This document shows positions 4,585 to 28,417 of a stretch of 29,876 nt of DNA, one piece after another. The notes beneath the pieces were generated by a model. It made no database searches, was not told where the DNA came from, and worked only from the letters and a program-made list of their open reading frames with translations. Made by a program: the position numbers and the translations under genes. The first letter of the stretch is position 1. Every line of letters starts with the position of its first letter. Origin of the DNA: a virus; the IMG/VR virus record IMGVR_UViG_3300032157_000365, positions 1 to 29,876 of that record. One strand, given 5' to 3'.

Positions 4585-6060
4585 TTAATAAGCGTTGAAC
4601 ATATAAAGTTTAGCCCCTGCGTTGGCAATGGTGGCCGCGTTTAATACCTCTTGCCGCACTGCCGCCATTGTGGCGATTTGTGTAGTGTTCGTTCCTAACG
4701 CTGCTGTGGGTGCAGCAGGCGTTCCAGTGAATGTTGGAGAAGCCAGGGGTGCCTTCAAAGCCAGTAGCGAGGTAATAGTAGCGGCAAAATTGGCATCATC
4801 GCCAAGAGCCGCAGCTAACTCGTCCAGTGTGTCGAGAGCCCCCGGAGCAGCACTGATCAATGCGTTGATAGCCGCCACAACAAAAGCCGTGGTGGCGAGC
4901 TGCGTGCTGTTAGTACCCTGGCTGGCCGTTGGCGCTGTGGGCGTTCCGGTTAAACCAGGTGAAGCAAGTGGAGCCTTCAGCGCCAGCTCGTTAGTCAATG
5001 TGTTTTGGTCAACCGCACCATCCGTGTTCGATCCCAGTGCAGTGTATAGTTTAACAATTCCAGCAATCAGGGCTGTGGCTGCTGCAACACTGCCACCCAC
5101 GATCTGGAAGTTGGTTCCATCATAAGCCAGGTTCAATACTTGCCCTGCTGCAATGTCACCTGATACCAACGCACCGCTCACGTTCTTCTTTATGGCTTTC
5201 GCTCCCAGTCCGTTCACGTTAATCGTACTGGCACCGGTGTTGGCATTAGTGAACTTCACCTGGAATATCTGTCCGGCTGTATAAGCTGTTGGTGCAGGTG
5301 AGAGCGTGATGGCATACGTATCCGTGCCGGTGGCTGTTGCAGATACCGCAAGTGAATCCTGGATGGTACGTGTTACTACATTCTGATTGATGGCTCCATC
5401 CGTTCCGCTTCCCAGGGCAGTGAATAGTTTAGCCTTGCCCTTTGTGGTAGGTGTAGCATCGGGAATGGTTGAGCTGATCTGCCTCCAAAGTATATCGGTG
5501 GTCTCCAGTGTAATATCTATCGAGTACTGAGTCCATGCTGTTCCAATGTTTACCGTTCCCTCCGCTACCTGCACAAGGGCTCCTTGCAATTCTATACCTG
5601 TGTCAGCATCAGTTGTTCTTGTCCAGTCTCCTGCATCAACCAGGTACAATCCATTCTCACTCACGGTTGATTGATCTTTCACCAGCACCCGGTCTCCTGT
5701 CACCACGGCAACTCCATCAATGGTCTGCTCACCGGAAAGCGTGATGTCGGCTGTAGTGGCCGCACGTGCATCGCTCTTGGGCTTCAAACCGTCAATAGCT
5801 GCATTGAGCTGCTCAAACGTTACAGCCTCACCATTCTCTGTGGCAGCGAGCAATTGCTTGATACGGTTGCCATTCATATCAATGTCACCCTCCATCGCCT
5901 GGCTACCATCTTTCTTGAAGAACTCTACACCTAACAATGCCGAGATGAAAGTCTTCAATTGATCGGGATTGGTGGCTTTGTTACCATCCACTCCCAACGG
6001 AATCTTCTCACTGCCCGTTAGGACTGAAATAATTTCGCGCTCTGATATTCTTTGGCTCAT
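4585..6060 (-). CDS. Tail fibre protein with tandem tail repeats
   Basis: About 491 residues from the ATG at 6060 (MSQRISEREIISVLTG), just two bases after the stop of the LysM-like gene. The upstream in-frame start at 6105 would overlap that gene by 44 bases. The N-terminal part has GDIDMNGNRIKQL, followed by the fibre shaft segment with TADITLSGEQTIDG and NGLYLVDAGDWTRT, a module widespread in phage fibres. The C-terminal part holds two copies of ALKAPLASP..TGTP.APTA..GTN, typical tail-fibre repeats, and two copies of a TALGS.TDGA..QN unit. It probably forms a trimeric fibre shaft attached to the baseplate, with the adhesins downstream at its tip. Confidence 0.85.
   Translation of the reverse strand: MSQRISEREIISVLTGSEKIPLGVDGNKATNPDQLKTFISALLGVEFFKKDGSQAMEGDIDMNGNRIKQLLAATENGEAVTFEQLNAAIDGLKPKSDARAATTADITLSGEQTIDGVAVVTGDRVLVKDQSTVSENGLYLVDAGDWTRTTDADTGIELQGALVQVAEGTVNIGTAWTQYSIDITLETTDILWRQISSTIPDATPTTKGKAKLFTALGSGTDGAINQNVVTRTIQDSLAVSATATGTDTYAITLSPAPTAYTAGQIFQVKFTNANTGASTINVNGLGAKAIKKNVSGALVSGDIAAGQVLNLAYDGTNFQIVGGSVAAATALIAGIVKLYTALGSNTDGAVDQNTLTNELALKAPLASPGLTGTPTAPTASQGTNSTQLATTAFVVAAINALISAAPGALDTLDELAAALGDDANFAATITSLLALKAPLASPTFTGTPAAPTAALGTNTTQIATMAAVRQEVLNAATIANAGAKLYMFNAY
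4650..4990 (-). repeat. Two diverged tandem copies of a tail-fibre repeat
   Basis: Within the fibre gene two stretches, roughly 4652-4765 and 4876-4990, encode matching segments starting ALKAPLASP and containing TGTP.APTA and GTN.TQ.AT. The DNA copies have diverged, so this looks like an old duplication of a shaft unit rather than a recent slippage product. Boundaries are approximate. Confidence 0.75.
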
Positions 6061-6061
6061 G

Positions 6062-6583
6062 TTAGTTCTCCAGTAAAATGAATCCTGAACCTCCTTCCAA
6101 TACAATAAATCCTTCGTCTCCTTCCATCAATACAAATTCACCAATCTCTCCCCCTGTGTTTACTTTGTGCCTGAGCGCCCTGTAGTATTGAACCACATCC
6201 AGGTTGGCGATATCATTTGTGTTCACATTGATCACCGCGCCAGTCACAGGTTCATCTTCAAGGCCAATTCCGTTTTCCTTCAGCAACGCCACCAGCCCTG
6301 CAATGTCTCCTGTCTCCTGCAATGCCAGGTCAATAATATTCTGATCACTATCCACAACTGTATCCTGAACTTTGATAACAACAGCAGGAGGAAAGAGAGG
6401 TCTTACCTGCTTCAGCTCCAGCACACGCTCGTCATTCACATCCCGCTCAACCGCATCCGTCTCCACAGCATCTATTGCCAGCCCGTTATCACGTGCCAGG
6501 TCGGGCAACCCTTCTATGTGGCCATAAGATCGAATGGCAACATCCACCAGGCTCTCGTCTTTATATGTTGTGATCTTGCTCAT
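6062..6583 (-). CDS. LysM-like baseplate/tail protein
   Basis: A 173-residue acidic protein with two copies of a LysM-like unit: ESLVDVAIRSYGHIEGLPDLA (residues about 10-30) and QNIIDLALQETGDIAGLVALL (about 82-102). Each is followed by a residue pattern of the kind that closes LysM. LysM-like domains in phage baseplates usually mediate assembly contacts in the hub rather than peptidoglycan binding. The C-terminus carries a repeated short phrase (FVLMEGDEGFIVLEGGSGFILLEN). It lies between the gp46-like gene (one shared base) and the fibre gene. A wedge or hub connector role is inferred. Confidence 0.7.
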   Translation of the reverse strand: MSKITTYKDESLVDVAIRSYGHIEGLPDLARDNGLAIDAVETDAVERDVNDERVLELKQVRPLFPPAVVIKVQDTVVDSDQNIIDLALQETGDIAGLVALLKENGIGLEDEPVTGAVINVNTNDIANLDVVQYYRALRHKVNTGGEIGEFVLMEGDEGFIVLEGGSGFILLEN

Positions 6584-15396: not shown

Positions 15397-16326
15397 TTAG
15401 TTGTCTTCTACAAGAGCTGCAACTCCTTTCTCGCTGAGGCGGCTCATGGTTCCACCACCGCGCATCATGATGTTCATGCTCTGTCCACCGGCATAGTCAG
15501 GACGTGGAGCCGGGTCCATATTCACCAGGGCAGTGCCCTTGATGTAGCGAACATGCTTGGTGTGGTAGAAAATTGCTGAAAGGTTATCAGTTGTAGCCGT
15601 AGCAGCTCCGATTGCTTTCTTCGCTGGAGTAGAAGCCTCTGTGAATACTTGCGTCTCAGAGCGCAAGAAGATGTCAAAGCTGAATATCTTCATTATCGCA
15701 CCCTTGGCCAGCAACTGGTTGTTCTCATCACTGCCTTGTCCGTATGCTTTTTTAAGAGCGATCAGGTCTTCCAGGAAGTAAGGGTTTACTACAGCTCGCC
15801 TGTTTTCAACAGGAATGTTAAGGCTGTTGAACAAAGTGAATGCCCACATCCAGTCAGCCTCAATCGAAACCTTGCGGGTGCCGGTGGCACCAGGTGCATG
15901 AGCTGCACGGGTCGTGCCGCCAGTAGTCTGGCGGATAAAGTTTGCCCCTGCTGTAGCTGAAGGTGCCCAGCCATACATGATCCGGTTCGCTAGATTTTTG
16001 TCAAGCGAGTTCGTGTGCTTCTCCAGCTTCTTCGCCCGCTTATCATAGCTCACCAGCAACTGGTTATTATAGGTAACCAGGGTCGGCTTGGTGATGAGGA
16101 GGTCGGCACCATACTCTTTCTTGGTGTCCTCCTCGATGTTGATGGGCAACGGAAGTTGGGTTGGGTTTACAACCACCTCAGCTTCTCCATCCTCATCTTG
16201 AGGAATTTCGATTGTCTCCACGTCAACAGCGGCCTCATCCACCTGGCATCCAGCGTAGAATGAATTGTCCGGATACAGCTTCATCTGAACATCGCTGCTA
16301 AAAAGTTTCTTTAATACTTCGGCCAT
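15397..16326 (-). CDS. Major capsid protein
   Basis: A 309-residue protein starting at the ATG at 16326 (MAEVLKKLFSSD). An earlier start at 16389 would overlap the decoration-like gene, so it is rejected. It follows protease and decoration-like genes in the order of Mu gpI-gpT. Features consistent with a Mu-T/HK97-like head protein are ITKPTLVTYNNQLLVSYDKR near 80-100, ANRIMYGWAPSATAGANFI and a C-terminal strand with HTKHVRYIKGTALVNMDP. The protein is probably cleaved or scaffolded by the upstream ClpP-like protease. A hairpin follows its stop. Confidence is from gene order, size and pattern. Confidence 0.85.
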   Translation of the reverse strand: MAEVLKKLFSSDVQMKLYPDNSFYAGCQVDEAAVDVETIEIPQDEDGEAEVVVNPTQLPLPINIEEDTKKEYGADLLITKPTLVTYNNQLLVSYDKRAKKLEKHTNSLDKNLANRIMYGWAPSATAGANFIRQTTGGTTRAAHAPGATGTRKVSIEADWMWAFTLFNSLNIPVENRRAVVNPYFLEDLIALKKAYGQGSDENNQLLAKGAIMKIFSFDIFLRSETQVFTEASTPAKKAIGAATATTDNLSAIFYHTKHVRYIKGTALVNMDPAPRPDYAGGQSMNIMMRGGGTMSRLSEKGVAALVEDN

Positions 16327-16339
16327 AAATTTTAAATGG

Positions 16340-16681
16340 TTAGTTGATTTGAGCTGAGGTTCCAAACGGTTTGAATGATGTGCCGTCATAGAAGAAGCTT
16401 TGCGTCTTCGTCTTGGCGGTCACGCCCACAATGGCTGGCCCGTCTATGCCGGTGCCAAGTGTGAGATCGAAACCATTGGTTTGAGCAGGCACTATCAAGT
16501 GAACGATAGCACCCTCCCGAACTTGACTGTCAATGGTCAGGTCAAGAGTTGCGTCTGCCGTAAGTTGAGCCAGTGTAAGAATGGTCAACATGTTGGTAAT
16601 GGTGGCCGCGATTGTGGTGGCGAAAGCCAGGGTCTGCTCATCAGCAGCTCCTTGTGGCCAGTTTATTTTTTCTATACTCAT
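16340..16681 (-). CDS. Head decoration-like protein, copy B
   Basis: A 113-residue beta-rich protein starting MSIEKINWPQGAADEQTL. It shares with its neighbour (16694-17035) the phrases ATIAATI.NM.TILTL, LTIDSQVREGAI and LGTGIDGPAIVGV, and the end YDGT.F.P.G. These proteins stand between head protease and capsid, the place of decoration proteins (Mu gp33/D-like) in related phages. It probably binds the capsid surface. The pair arose by tandem duplication and has diverged in the middle (VPAQTNGFDL against VPATSDADDV). Confidence 0.7.
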   Translation of the reverse strand: MSIEKINWPQGAADEQTLAFATTIAATITNMLTILTLAQLTADATLDLTIDSQVREGAIVHLIVPAQTNGFDLTLGTGIDGPAIVGVTAKTKTQSFFYDGTSFKPFGTSAQIN

Positions 16682-16693
16682 TTGAGTTATTGA

Positions 16694-17035
16694 TTAATCG
16701 ATTTGAACATAAGCGCCCATCGGCCTGAAGGCAGTGCCGTCATACATAAATCCTTGTGTGTTAGTCTTTCCAGCCACGCCAACAATCGCGGGGCCGTCAA
16801 TGCCGGTGCCAAGTGTCACGTCATCGGCATCACTCGTGGCAGGTACTTTAATCGCCAGGATCGCGCCCTCACGCACCTGGCTGTCAATAGTCAGGTTGAG
16901 TGTGGCTACACCTTCGAGAACTTCCAAGGTCAGTATGGTGAACATATTGACAATGGTGGCCGCAATAGTAGCACCGTACTCAAGCGTCTGCTTGTCTGCT
17001 GCTCCGAAGGGCCAGTTTACTTTCTCGATTGTCAT
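16694..17035 (-). CDS. Head decoration-like protein, copy A
   Basis: A 113-residue paralogue of the downstream gene, with exactly the same length and no internal gaps in a by-eye alignment. It starts MTIEKVNWPFGAADKQTL. It lies three bases after the protease/scaffold gene and about twelve before copy B. Two retained copies suggest that they occupy different sites on the capsid or that a high dose is needed. The decoration role is inferred from position; the fold appears to be all-beta. Confidence 0.7.
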   Translation of the reverse strand: MTIEKVNWPFGAADKQTLEYGATIAATIVNMFTILTLEVLEGVATLNLTIDSQVREGAILAIKVPATSDADDVTLGTGIDGPAIVGVAGKTNTQGFMYDGTAFRPMGAYVQID

Positions 17036-22409: not shown

Positions 22410-23678
22410 TTGTTATTAGCTGTTGCTGATCTCGACAATTACATTCAGCGTGCTATCAATAAAATTTACAAAGGCAGGCTCGAACCTGGTCAACCTGATC
22501 CGGGATTGGTAAAGGCCACAGCGGATGAACTATGGAAAGGAATTCTCCAGGGCTGGAAGTCAGACCCCGCCAACGCAAAGTTTGGAAGCCAGGAACAGCG
22601 CCTTCTCATTCAGCTTCGCTTCAATACATACATCACCAGTGTGTTTAAGCACCACCACAGCAGCTTGGCCATGTCGCGTGAATTGTTCGATGCCGGTGGA
22701 AAGCTTCGCTCGTTCAAAGAGTTTCAGAACGCAGTTAAAACGCAGGTCGATCCAAAGTATAACCAGCAATGGTTGAAGACTGAATACAACACTGCCATCG
22801 CTTCAGCTCAGCAAGCTCGCAAGTGGACAACCTATGAGCGAAAGGGCGGTTCAATTACTTATGTGGCTGTACTTGACTCACGCACACGTCCGGATCATGC
22901 TGGCTGGCATGGTGTCACGCTTCCGGTAGATAATGTATGGTGGAACTATCACTTTCCTCCCAATGGTTTCAATTGCCGGTGCACCACCAGGTGGGCAGGC
23001 ACTGAAGCGAAAGATGTTTCACCAAAAACTAATGAAGATGTGCCTGCTCAGTTTAAAAACAATGTCGGCAAAACCGGCCAGGCTTTTACTGATGCAATGC
23101 CATACTTCACGGTCGAAGGCGCATTCGCGGATGAAGCGGCCAGGCTATTTGGTTTTAAACCTCCGGTGAATCCGGTTAAATATTCGAATAACATGCGGCT
23201 GTTCGAAACCTTGACTACTGATCCGCACTATTCCCAGGTGTTTACAGATAACCTGACTGGCGGCTATGTGTTCGCACACTCGCTGGCCGATCAAAAACAC
23301 CTGGCCACCAATTTACGAGCCGCAAAACGTTTGGCAATGAATGGTGAGTCTGTGATCATCAGGGAACATCTCGAAGGCATAAAGAATCCGGAGTACCTCA
23401 TCAATGGGAATTTACTGAGCGATCTGAAAACACCATTAACATCCAGTGGCATAAACAATCGATTCAAGAGTGCAGCCGCCCAGATGTTGAATCACCTGGT
23501 GCTGGATGCTGAAAGCTTAACAATCGACAAGGTCGTGGAAGGCATTAATCGCGGCTTCAGGAACAATCGCTCCATTGATAGCCTTATACTGATATATGGC
23601 AAGCGGGTTATTGAGTTAAACCGCGAACAGTTTCAACGAGGAATGATTAAACGGGAGATACTGGATGCCCTGAAATAA
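22410..23678 (+). CDS. MuF head-morphogenesis protein fused to a CdiA-CT-like nuclease domain
   Basis: From the TTG at 22410 the protein has 422 residues, but the frame is open back to 22266 without any ATG or GTG. It probably starts as a frameshift product of the portal gene (453 residues after the shift). Residues about 110-200 are the MuF domain: WLKTEYNTAIASAQQARKW, LDSRTRPDHAGWHGVTLP and FPPNGFNCRCTTRW. MuF joins the portal and is injected with DNA in some phages. Residues about 255-420 are an extra domain, with YVFAHSLADQKHLATNLRAA, MNGESVIIREH, NPEYLINGNLLSDLKTP and FKSAAAQMLNHLVLD. It resembles CdiA-CT/BECR-type RNases used as contact-dependent or phage-borne toxins. No immunity gene is evident. 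Confidence 0.82.
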   Translation: MLLAVADLDNYIQRAINKIYKGRLEPGQPDPGLVKATADELWKGILQGWKSDPANAKFGSQEQRLLIQLRFNTYITSVFKHHHSSLAMSRELFDAGGKLRSFKEFQNAVKTQVDPKYNQQWLKTEYNTAIASAQQARKWTTYERKGGSITYVAVLDSRTRPDHAGWHGVTLPVDNVWWNYHFPPNGFNCRCTTRWAGTEAKDVSPKTNEDVPAQFKNNVGKTGQAFTDAMPYFTVEGAFADEAARLFGFKPPVNPVKYSNNMRLFETLTTDPHYSQVFTDNLTGGYVFAHSLADQKHLATNLRAAKRLAMNGESVIIREHLEGIKNPEYLINGNLLSDLKTPLTSSGINNRFKSAAAQMLNHLVLDAESLTIDKVVEGINRGFRNNRSIDSLILIYGKRVIELNREQFQRGMIKREILDALK

Positions 23679-25882: not shown

Positions 25883-25890
25883 CAAAGTTA
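25883..25890 (-). promoter_or_regulatory. TAACTTTG, candidate -7 element for the lipoprotein gene
   Basis: On the minus strand TAACTTTG matches the Bacteroidota -7 consensus TAnnTTTG at every fixed position and ends 17 bases before the lipoprotein ATG. It includes the stop codon of the upstream gene. No clear -33 TTG is found at the usual distance, so confidence is moderate. Confidence 0.4.
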
Positions 25891-26184
25891 AGTAAACTCG
25901 TAATACTCGTTCGTATTAACAATCGTTGTTTCAAACGGGAACCCATCACGAGGCACCAACTTAATTTGATTCATCAGCGGATTTGACCCAGTAAACACTA
26001 CCCGTTTGTCACTGTCCTTTTCAATCTGCAAGGTCATGAAGTCAGTGCCAGGCTTCTTTTTTGATGGCTCGATCTTGAACTCCAGCACTTTGATTGACAC
26101 ATTCAGTATCTTCCTAATGGATATACTCTCGCCTATGAACCTCCTGTCCACAGGCTTGATATTGAAGTCCTTAAAAGTTTTCAT
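25888..26184 (-). CDS. 98-residue protein coupled to the DGR reverse transcriptase
   Basis: A protein of 98 residues whose ATG overlaps the stop of the reverse transcriptase (ATGA, 26181-26184), so the two are almost certainly co-translated. It is basic and beta-rich: FIGESISIRKILNVSIKVLE, FKIEPSKKKPGTDFMTLQIE, RVVFTGSNPLMNQIKLVP and a short end EYYEFT. Alternating strands with Lys/Arg and aromatic residues recall small OB-fold single-strand binding proteins, but no signature is certain. Similar small genes occur in Bacteroidota phages. Given its coupling, a role in the DGR reaction is worth testing. I do not recognise a family. Confidence 0.7.
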   Translation of the reverse strand: MKTFKDFNIKPVDRRFIGESISIRKILNVSIKVLEFKIEPSKKKPGTDFMTLQIEKDSDKRVVFTGSNPLMNQIKLVPRDGFPFETTIVNTNEYYEFT

Positions 26185-27134
26185 TGGCTCAACAGTTTTT
26201 TGGTTAAATGATTGCAGTCAGCATGCCCCAACCAACCGCGATAAGATGGTATTGAAACATGATTCGGGTTATTGGATAGCTTTCTGGCGAATGCCTGTTT
26301 AATGCTCTTCCTGATTTTGATGTGGTCGTGACGGGAAACATAGCCCACATAATCGATGCCGCGAGCTGCCACAGGAAACACCTGGTGATTCTCTTTCACT
26401 TCCAACTTCAGAGCGCTCAGGTATTGCTTAATCTCTACCAGCAAAGTATGCAGCCTGTCTTTGTCAGAGTCCAGGATCACAACATCATCGGCATATCGGT
26501 AGTAATATGGCTTTCGCTTCTCCTGTTTTATCCACTTGTCGAAATCCGACAAGTAGAAGTTTGCCAGGTACTGGCTTAGATAGTTTCCAATGGGCAGACC
26601 GGGAGCGCTGGCAATGATCTCATCCAGCAGCCAGAGCAAGTCATTGTCTTTGAACTTTCTCCGGAGGAGCATCTTCAGTACATCGTGATCAACGCTCGGA
26701 TAGAATTTCTTTATATCAAACTTCAGGCAATAGCGTGTGCCCTCAGTGTCTTGTAAGTCTGTTTTGAGTTTGTGCAGCAAGGCGTGAATGCCGCGCTGTT
26801 TAATGCAGCTATAAGTATCCACCGTGAACGACCTGACCAATATTGGCTCCAGCACATTCATAATGGCGTGGTGAGCGATCCGGTCAGGGAAATACGGAAG
26901 CCTGTAAACTTCCCGCTCCTTCGGTTCAAACACTTTGAAAATATCGTAAGGTGATGTTTTATATGTCTTAGATTCGAGCATGTCCTGCAACATCAACAGG
27001 TTACCCTCTTTGTTTCGGTTGTGCAGTCGCACACCGTATTGATTGGCTTTACCCTGCTGAGCCTTTCTATCGGCCTCTTGCAGATTAGCCTGGCTTGTGA
27101 TCAGGTGATATAGGTTACCGATGCGTTTCATCAC
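26181..27134 (-). CDS. Diversity-generating retroelement reverse transcriptase
   Basis: A 317-residue reverse transcriptase that makes mutated cDNA from the template repeat RNA. It opens with the typical RIGNLYHLIT. The motifs are in order: CLKFDIKKFYPSVDH (motif A, Asp140), GLPIGNYLSQYLANFYL with the DGR-specific IGxxxSQ (182-188), and YRYADDVVIL (catalytic YADD, 214-217). DYVGYVSRHDHIKIRK follows near 261-276. The size and the lack of maturase or endonuclease domains fit DGR enzymes and exclude group II intron RTs, which carry QGxxxSP. It lies downstream of the template and two target genes on the same strand, coupled by ATGA to genes on both sides. The TR and VR evidence makes the assignment nearly certain. 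Confidence 0.97.
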   Translation of the reverse strand: MMKRIGNLYHLITSQANLQEADRKAQQGKANQYGVRLHNRNKEGNLLMLQDMLESKTYKTSPYDIFKVFEPKEREVYRLPYFPDRIAHHAIMNVLEPILVRSFTVDTYSCIKQRGIHALLHKLKTDLQDTEGTRYCLKFDIKKFYPSVDHDVLKMLLRRKFKDNDLLWLLDEIIASAPGLPIGNYLSQYLANFYLSDFDKWIKQEKRKPYYYRYADDVVILDSDKDRLHTLLVEIKQYLSALKLEVKENHQVFPVAARGIDYVGYVSRHDHIKIRKSIKQAFARKLSNNPNHVSIPSYRGWLGHADCNHLTKKLLSQ

Positions 27135-27334
27135 TGTATAAATTCCGTCCTCTCGTCATTCAGCATCCATGTAATACCGTTGCCTCCTGGGCCACTCCGA
27201 TAAAACTCACCAGTAACGATTACGCGAATTCGCTCGGCTCTGTATAGTTTATAGTGACCGCATCGGGTGCATTTCTTCGGATAGCCCTTCTTGCTTTCAT
27301 TCGCTCCATTACATCTTACGCATCGATAGTACAT
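27131..27334 (-). CDS. Small zinc-ribbon protein between TR and RT
   Basis: A 67-residue protein with two CxxC pairs (Cys5/Cys8 in YRCVRCNG and Cys22/Cys25 in KKCTRCGHY), which together form a zinc ribbon. The rest is basic (KLYRAERIRVIVTGEF) and ends in a Gly-rich part. Its stop overlaps the RT start by four bases (ATGA). In well-known DGRs this place near the TR and RT is taken by the accessory gene avd, a helical protein; this one is clearly different. A nucleic-acid-binding accessory role is an inference from the zinc ribbon, basic charge and coupling. Confidence 0.8.
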   Translation of the reverse strand: MYYRCVRCNGANESKKGYPKKCTRCGHYKLYRAERIRVIVTGEFYRSGPGGNGITWMLNDERTEFIQ

Positions 27335-27367
27335 AGATTAATAGTTTTAATTCCACTTTGCTTGTCG

Positions 27368-27400
27368 TGACTTGCCTTCGCTCGCGCTACCAACAAGTCA
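27368..27400 (-). repeat. Hairpin in the spacer downstream of the template repeat
   Basis: TGACTTG (27368-27374) and CAAGTCA (27394-27400) form a seven-pair stem around a 19-base loop containing CGCTCGCG. It lies about 58 bases after the end of TR in the transcribed direction, in the spacer needed for cDNA priming in the Bordetella phage DGR. Confidence 0.55.
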
Positions 27401-27457
27401 GATTTTAACTACGTGATTTTTTGCCAAGAGGCACGGCCTGCAACAGTTATTATCTTC

Positions 27458-27535
27458 AGCATAGGTGCGAGCTGACATTCGAATTCGAGTTCCAGTTATC
27501 GTAGTCGTTATACTGAAAGCCGGAAGAACCGCCCA
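27458..27535 (-). repeat. DGR template repeat (TR)
   Basis: This 78-base segment aligns without gaps to 27656-27733 and 28036-28113. On the minus strand it carries 18 adenines between the GGCGGTTCTTCCGG start and the CTATGCT end. Read in the frame of the targets it encodes an Asn-rich version of the variable segment, with five AAC/AAT codons at positions that differ in the targets. Such AAY codons are the mark of DGR templates, because adenine mutagenesis reaches many amino acids but never a stop codon. Confidence 0.96.
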
Positions 27536-27560
27536 AACCATCGCACAGCCTGTTTTCATT

Positions 27561-27965
27561 TTACTTCTTCTTTCCCTTCTTAGTATAGTACGTTTTGTAC
27601 AGCTTCAAGAAGTTCTTGTTCTTCACCACATGCATCATGGTAGGGTGATCAATAAAGCAAAGGCGCGAGCCGACACACGAACCCGAGACCCGGTAACCGA
27701 AGTCGCTATACCGAAAGCCGGAAGAACCGCCCACGAAGTATGGTTCATACTTTACCTGGTCTGGATCATCATGGTCAGCTATCCACTCCTTACCTCCGTT
27801 GGCAATGCGGTTGGCAGCGCTAATAACGATCACTAACATAGCATGAGCCTTCTCAGCCTCTCTATCTTTCTCAGGAAAGAACTTAAAGTCAGGGATCACC
27901 TTCTTTGAGTCGAGCCCCTCAACCTTGCAAGCGGCTTCGAACGATTTTAGTTGTGAGAGTTTCAT
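27561..27965 (-). CDS. DGR target protein 1 (variable C-terminal lectin-like domain)
   Basis: About 134 residues from the ATG at 27965, whose ATGA overlaps the stop of target 2; a longer start at 27989 is less likely. The N-terminus is helical (MKLSQLKSFEAACKVEGLD, then EKAHAMLVIVISAANRIANG). From residue 66 it matches target 2 (DQVKYEPYFVGGSSGFRY). The variable segment (residues 78-104) ends GSRLCF, the closing pattern of the C-type-lectin/FGE-like fold used by DGR targets. About 30 residues follow VR, ending lysine-rich. There is no signal peptide. The varied surface probably binds a changing ligand; whether it is virion-borne or intracellular cannot be told. Confidence 0.9.
   Translation of the reverse strand: MKLSQLKSFEAACKVEGLDSKKVIPDFKFFPEKDREAEKAHAMLVIVISAANRIANGGKEWIADHDDPDQVKYEPYFVGGSSGFRYSDFGYRVSGSCVGSRLCFIDHPTMMHVVKNKNFLKLYKTYYTKKGKKK
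27656..27733 (-). repeat. DGR variable repeat 1 (VR1)
   Basis: A 78-base gap-free match to the TR. On the coding strand 15 positions differ, 14 of them adenine in TR. The exception is TGG to CGG, a T to C change. The first 22 bases, which contain no adenine, are identical to TR. Confidence 0.95.
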
Positions 27966-28417
27966 TGTACGATTATTGTTTTGTACCACTTCGTGAAAGT
28001 CTGCCCGGCATGAATAGCATCATCCGGCTCCAGGAAGCAAAGGCGCGAGCCGACATGCGAATACGAGTACCAGACATCGTAGACGTAATACCGAAAGCCG
28101 GAAGAACCGCCCACGAAACGAGGCTCATACTTCACCTGGTCTGAGTTGTCAAAGTCAAGGGCTACATCGCCATTGAGTGACTTTTGGAGCAACTCAATGA
28201 AACGTGTGGCGCGTTCATGCGGCCTTAAGCCTTCGCACCACTTCTCGAAGCTTTCCCATGTGTAGCCGTTGTCAGTCAGCACAGCTTCATCGGTGTTGAG
28301 CCGCTCACGCTTGGCTTTTTCTTTGTACGTTCCTTGTCCGGTAGATTTATCGAACGAGTCGATAAGGCATCCATCCGGAATGTCAATTTTGAAAGTGTTC
28401 TGTTGTTTTGTTTGCAT
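27962..28417 (-). CDS. DGR target protein 2 (variable C-terminal lectin-like domain)
   Basis: A 151-residue protein starting MQTKQQNTFKIDIPDGCLID. The front has an 'I.IP.G..ID' phrase common in Bacteroidota phage proteins. A helical part follows (WESFEKWCEGLRPHERATRF, IELLQKSLNGDVALDF), then DQVKYEPRFVGGSSGFRY. The variable segment spans residues 102-128, with hydrophobic and aromatic residues at positions that are Asn in the template, and closes with GSRLCF. Some 23 residues follow it. There is no signal peptide or membrane segment. Target 1 is coupled to it by ATGA, so both are made from one transcript ahead of the TR and RT. Confidence 0.9.
   Translation of the reverse strand: MQTKQQNTFKIDIPDGCLIDSFDKSTGQGTYKEKAKRERLNTDEAVLTDNGYTWESFEKWCEGLRPHERATRFIELLQKSLNGDVALDFDNSDQVKYEPRFVGGSSGFRYYVYDVWYSYSHVGSRLCFLEPDDAIHAGQTFTKWYKTIIVQ
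28036..28113 (-). repeat. DGR variable repeat 2 (VR2)
   Basis: A 78-base gap-free match to the TR. All 11 coding-strand differences fall at TR adenines (to G, T or C), with no change at the other 60 positions. This is the diagnostic pattern of adenine-directed mutagenic retrohoming. Confidence 0.96.

Follow-up and report, generated by a model that had tools for sequence, protein, structure and literature searches.

In the DGR of the Bordetella phage BPP-1, cDNA synthesis is primed within IMH* by a spacer adenine and yields an RNA-cDNA hybrid (PMC12875486). The route of the cDNA into the variable repeat (VR) and the sparing of the template repeat (TR) were described as unknown in that 2026 paper, through which we also know the Okazaki-like intermediate proposed by Naorem et al. 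(as relayed in PMC12875486). The IMH sets the direction of retrohoming (PMC3240598). In Hankyphage and in the archaeal virus ANMV-1, a small ORF was named as the accessory "Avd" on account of its size and charge (PMC6199706, PMC4372165). HRDC and MSL are other named accessory proteins (PMC10053308), and about a quarter of DGRs were reported without an accessory gene (PMC7290462). Lineage-3 DGRs without Avd are known from the account of Wu et al. (2018) cited in PMC7290462. DGRs in Mu-like phages of Bacteroidota are already known, and so is the arrangement of two targets per TR, since about 13% of DGRs carry two (PMC10743442).

The DNA analysed here, called the window, is a linear IMG/VR entry of 29,876 bases and is probably a fragment. 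Mu-type head genes were found in it (Portal_Mu, Phage_Mu_F, Mu Gp36 and Phage_tail_S, the Mu G family; PF06074, PF04233, PF07030 and PF05069). The Mu transposase C-domain (PF09299) is absent from the window fragment and present in the records of 4 of 11 relatives, and the nearest cellular loci lie in MAGs of Cyclobacteriaceae and Chryseobacterium. A sequence-only reading of the window had proposed a Mu-like phage of a Bacteroidota host, and these findings agree with it. The neighbours of the DGR cassette, which sits past the head and portal genes, are an HNH endonuclease gene and small genes; the tail-fibre gene (4585-6105) is not among them. In the head region, the C-terminal domain of the Mu F-like head protein (22410-23678, plus strand) matches CdiA_C (PF18451, E 5e-6), and extra length hints at the same fusion. 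Between the capsid gene (15397-16389) and the protease gene are two similar tandem 113-aa genes (16340-16681 and 16694-17035), possibly duplicates of a decoration protein.

All features of the cassette are on the minus strand. A repeat search of the window recovered three gap-free 78-nt copies, which start at 27458, 27656 and 28036 and are exactly the one TR and two VRs of the earlier reading. The repeat search and base comparison identified the TR (27458-27535), whose 3' end is IMH* (CTATGCTG at 27457-27464). VR-A (28036-28113) differs from the TR at 11 positions on the minus strand, all of them TR adenines (hypergeometric p = 4e-9), and VR-B (27656-27733) at 15 positions, 14 of them TR adenines (p = 4e-11); the adenine bias of the earlier reading was thus reproduced count for count. 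Between the two VRs there are 14 differences, 13 of them at TR adenines. In the reading frame of the targets the TR is stop-free and codes for a stretch rich in N/D/Y/W/S. When 46 VRs of relatives were compared with 21 TRs, three or all four bases were seen at the interior TR adenines (26-57), whereas every VR (46/46) had G at A62 and A69 and T at A73, with the A kept in 20-21 of the 21 TRs. Since these mismatches are invariant, three of the adenine mismatches of each VR are fixed differences between IMH and IMH* at TR positions 62, 69 and 73 and not products of mutagenesis. The pairing site of the IMH reads CTTTGCTT in both VR-A (28035-28042) and VR-B (27655-27662).

The gene order and coupled starts noted before also hold, with ATGA between target genes A and B, TGATG between a zinc-ribbon-like ORF and the reverse transcriptase (RT), and ATGA between the RT and a 98-aa gene (P98). 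The RT (26181-27134, likely start ATG at 27131) matches phrog_1423 (E 1e-114) and PF00078 (E 5e-20), carries the motifs GLPIGNYLSQ and YADD, and aligns to the RTs of BPP-1 and Hankyphage, with G..xSQ and Y.DD in common. The cassette is a genuine DGR. The earlier description of a complete DGR stands as to one TR and two targets, but it missed the conserved OB-fold gene that overlaps the RT. The comparison set comprised about 300 relatives overall, including 45 viral RT relatives, and 236 DGR loci for a census of accessory genes. About 31 of the 45 RT relatives share the whole module, namely two or three paralogous targets, the TR, the RT and the 98-aa gene overlapping the RT stop. Hence two targets per TR are the normal state of this lineage, and the arrangement, previously singled out as noteworthy, is ordinary.

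Like the window, the Hankyphage p00 DGR of Bacteroides (PMC6199706, PMC12135933) belongs to a Mu-like phage of a Bacteroidota host and shows adenine-specific TR/VR differences. It has one VR in a tail-fibre gene and a TR of 116-117 nt, whereas the window has two small paralogous targets (134-151 aa) and a TR of 78 nt. BPP-1 shares the target-TR-RT order, adenine mutagenesis and a structured spacer RNA, but has Avd (PF22296), no OB protein, a single target with a C-terminal VR, and an RT only 33% identical. As far as PMC7290462 relays Wu et al. (2018), the lineage-3 DGR of the crAssphage LMMB likewise has no Avd, the target-TR-RT order and a VR of the SRLC/A-motif class; crAss RTs were among the nearest RTs in phage records. 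Unlike the window, crAss-like DGRs have one tail-collar target and no accessory factor reported in that account (PMC7290462), and the sole crAss locus examined (L118) gave no OB match. Two-target phage DGRs with tentaclins also have one TR and two target genes, but the two targets there are dissimilar proteins bearing C-lec domains (PMC10743442), whereas those of the window are small adjacent paralogues.

The 3' element of the spacer, AAGCAAAG (27356-27363), is complementary to both IMHs at 8/8 positions and to IMH* at 6/8. It is the exact complement of CTTTGCTT at both VR ends, where the TR instead has CTATGCTG. In the window alone, this 8-bp match ties with a rival 8-bp match at chance level, GCGCGAGC. 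Across 68 lineage representatives, the spacer-IMH helix ranked first among all 7-bp helices that VR ends and spacers could form, with 89% paired against a mean of 26% (sd 8.5%); the best unrelated 7-bp helix reached 65%, and 0/2000 row shuffles reached the spacer-IMH value. The match was kept with different letters in L132 (CTGGCTTT/AAAGCCAG), L178 (TTCGCTTT/AAAGCGAA), L034 (TGGTTTGTT/AACAAACCA), L041 (CCACCTTT/AAAGGTGG), L043 (CGCCTTCAGG/CCTGAAGGCG) and L120 (TTGTGCCGTT/AACGGCACAA). Because IMH and spacer are nearly identical among most clade 0 loci, only a minority of loci supports the covariation. BPP-1 is also like the window in that its spacer complements the IMH better than IMH*, the VR TGACCACCT matching the spacer AGGTGGTCA at 9/9 positions and the TR at 6/9. 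Spacer adenine 56 of BPP-1 is the primer and TR G117 the base copied first, and the match ends exactly at this place. We show here that the preference of the spacer for VR over TR, with covariation, occurs in several clades including that of BPP-1.

The pairing was not evident in four of the ten RT clades at 50% identity (L116, L117, BalMu-like and L112/L231, which are small clades) or in L028 and L035. A universal spacer-IMH pairing was not supported, given the four clades without a match. A clade-level permutation placed the pairing about 2.7 sd above the null, a modest excess, and part of the IMH conservation could come from the protein motif GSRLCF. The spacer-IMH match seems to have been under-described so far; our literature search had the key BPP-1 papers outside its scope, and an earlier report may exist.

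The complementarity may be a mere by-product of the spacer priming itself on the IMH* of the TR, combined with the likeness of VR to TR, and then it would have no role in the choice of target. An internal spacer adenine of BPP-1 does prime at IMH* (PMC12875486), and the spacer element of the window does pair in part with the TR. However, the better helix partner of the spacer was the VR in 98 of 119 representatives and the TR in 6 (Wilcoxon p 7e-17), and the TR mismatches are fixed in the comparison of 46 VRs with 21 TRs. In most BPP-1-type relatives the VR keeps TGACCAC and the TR departs from it in a variety of ways, although selection for priming alone should favour the opposite. We therefore regard self-priming alone as possible but doubtful. 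It is quite improbable that the element serves the next gene as a Shine-Dalgarno-like signal and matches the IMH by chance. In most loci AAAGCAAAGG does lie 1-12 nt before the RT start, but where a gene has been inserted (the window and L009) the element has remained with the RNA, and 24-26 nt separate it from the start that follows. It also covaries with the IMH (L132, L178, L034, L171, L140 and L041), and in BPP-1-type loci its distance to the RT is about 90 nt.

The spacer itself (27357-27438) resembles the Rfam family RT-17, which it matches over the full length with 29.9 bits (E 4.8e-4), below the gathering score of 40.4. Three close relatives (L007, L026 and L030) exceed that score, and compensatory changes on both sides were seen among relatives for 10 of the 13 predicted pairs. 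The full-length match and the relatives above threshold indicate that the spacer RNA is of a catalogued kind. In Rfam terms the BPP-1 spacer is Phage_DGR, and that of Hankyphage is RT-3, again an RNA of the RT-# series but a different one. RF03020 (RT-17) and RF03068 (RT-3) fall exactly on the DGR spacer between TR and RT. Judging from this placement, both are probably DGR RNAs; RT-17 may have been reported as such before.

The 98-aa gene (25888-26184) overlaps the RT with ATGA, and its product had no Pfam match. Its AlphaFold model (pLDDT 89) gave Z scores of 5-7 against the OB folds of SSB, PriB and RuvBL DII, values within the range of common small barrels and below the level that would prove kinship, and no Foldseek E value was below 0.07. 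With a profile of the protein, a separate gene was found directly after the RT in close relatives, in ANMV-1 and in the Methanosarcinales virus vir525. In Hankyphage and its kin, unlike the window, the same domain is fused to the C-terminus of the RT (residues ~330-425). All 23 matches of the OB protein in phage records (23/23) adjoin or fall inside a DGR RT. When viral contigs were searched with the 98-aa protein alone, each of the 80 loci found had a DGR RT just upstream (80/80, 76 of them within ~22 nt), and no Avd was found beside any of them.

In the census of 236 DGR loci, 137 had the OB protein (101 separate and downstream of the RT, 36 fused), 72 had Avd, none had both and 27 had neither. 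The Pfam bAvd model (PF22296) matched 6/6 BPP-1-type controls and 0/29 OB-type or unassigned records; it had no match in the window record, itself a fragment. Taken together, the gene neighbourhoods reported here show that the linkage of the OB protein to the RT is obligate and that OB and Avd are mutually exclusive. The loci without either match (27/236) include L034, L035, L118 and L120; some are truncated, and others may have a third partner. Hankyphage and ANMV-1 (L115 and L116), published with Avd, gave no bAvd match and have the OB domain instead. Avd users group into a single clade (99/88) of the unrooted RT tree and are surrounded by OB users, which would fit a replacement of OB by Avd. 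We propose that the 98-aa OB protein acts as an accessory factor in place of Avd, a biochemical role that we infer. No mention of an OB partner of DGR RTs was found in the literature searched, which did not extend to key primary BPP-1/DGR papers, and an earlier report may exist; such a partner seems under-described so far.

The zinc-ribbon-like ORF (27131-27334, 67 aa) between the spacer and the RT is another candidate accessory, and if it were the analogue of Avd the 98-aa gene would be an unrelated phage gene of an ordinary DGR. Its position between TR and RT and its translational coupling to the RT resemble the "Avd" ORFs called by size in Hankyphage and ANMV-1 (PMC6199706, PMC4372165). However, none of the 45 RT relatives has a homologue (0/45) and the ORF occurs only in the window, whereas the 98-aa gene is in all ~31 close ones; other loci have no gene between spacer and RT, or unrelated inserts in the same place. 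The zinc ribbon was thus rejected as an accessory factor, and that reading is very unlikely. The sequence-only reading had counted the ORF as part of the cassette, and it is probably a local insertion instead. Varied small genes occupy the interval between spacer RNA and RT in L004, L009, L010 and L018, apparently a repeated insertion point.

Adenine-specific TR/VR differences were seen in nearly all complete relatives. Variation at adenines among related phages had been named beforehand as the check on the DGR, and the comparison was run on pairs with an identical TR and RTs at least 90% identical. The VRs of these pairs differ at 494/1558 adenine sites and at 49/4828 other sites; the pairs overlap, and the counts are not independent. 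L018 and L019, whose RTs are 100% identical, show 6 differences at adenine sites and 0 elsewhere. L131, L132 and L133 have the same TR and RTs sharing 99.9-100%, and one comparison reveals differences in the first VR while another reveals them in the second, showing that both targets change independently. Since the VRs of same-TR relatives differ almost only at adenines, and in both targets, the DGR family is active, and VR diversification in nature holds, on this sequence comparison, for close relatives of the window phage. That the window holds a decayed DGR with persisting repeats is scarcely credible, because the reading frames of the RT, the 98-aa protein and both targets are open, with their motifs complete, and adenine variation occurs among near-identical relatives, even though the record is a fragment and the variation was seen in relatives.

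Target gene A (27962-28417, 151 aa) holds VR-A. Target gene B (27561-27965, about 134 aa) holds VR-B; its ATG overlaps the stop of gene A, and a longer reading would start at a GTG at 27989. The two proteins are paralogues with 37% identity; the VR lies in the interior of each, and behind it come a conserved GSRLCF motif and a C-terminal helix. No homologues were found in annotated phages by tblastn, no Pfam, NCBIfam or useful PHROG name was obtained, and sequence searches gave no solved structural relative for the targets or for the 98-aa OB protein. In the target model the confidence was under 50 at VR residues 107-118 and fold matches were weak; against 103 PDB chains nothing exceeded Z 2.2 and no C-type lectin was listed, the VR region being modelled with low confidence. 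An SRLC motif occurs in CLec3 VRs (PMC7290462), and its presence in the targets is only a lead toward a CLec fold. The usual guess would be a binding surface, perhaps for host recognition, though the targets lie away from the tail genes.

We consider it highly probable that the window carries an Avd-less, phage-borne DGR in which the RT, with the OB protein as partner, copies the TR, with miscopying of adenines, for transfer into two targets; pairing of the spacer with the IMH may steer this transfer. Assisted by the 98-aa OB protein instead of Avd, the RT would copy a transcript with the TR and the RT-17-like spacer RNA, and the TR adenines at about positions 26-57 of 78 would be miscopied. 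The cDNA would replace the matching stretch in either paralogous target, so that both could be diversified independently from a single template. The spacer element AAGCAAAG would act as primer at or close to IMH* and, while remaining attached to the cDNA, would pair perfectly with the sense strand at each VR IMH. Pairing with the TR would be imperfect because of the fixed mismatches, and the VRs would therefore be the preferred recipients and the TR would be preserved. Such pairing fits the Okazaki-like proposal, in that the spacer and cDNA would be continuous with the VR complement through the IMH and the TR less well matched. It would also explain why the IMH sets direction and why positions 62-73 are invariant.

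More broadly, DGRs may have two accessory types, Avd and an overlooked OB-fold protein, separate or fused to the RT, that excludes Avd, and in both types a spacer guide matching the IMH and not IMH* may set target and direction by RNA-DNA pairing. This general model is tentative, and we judge it slightly more apt to need revision than to stand as a whole. The spacer-IMH match that is broken in the TR, across unrelated clades, makes the direction of retrohoming open to a swap-and-rescue experiment. The OB partner, for which no occurrence apart from a DGR RT was found, would supply the missing accessory of Avd-less DGRs, and an OB-type DGR would give a second laboratory system for targeted mutagenesis. 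With two paralogous targets that vary independently on one TR, this lineage offers a compact example from nature of how several targets are diversified together.
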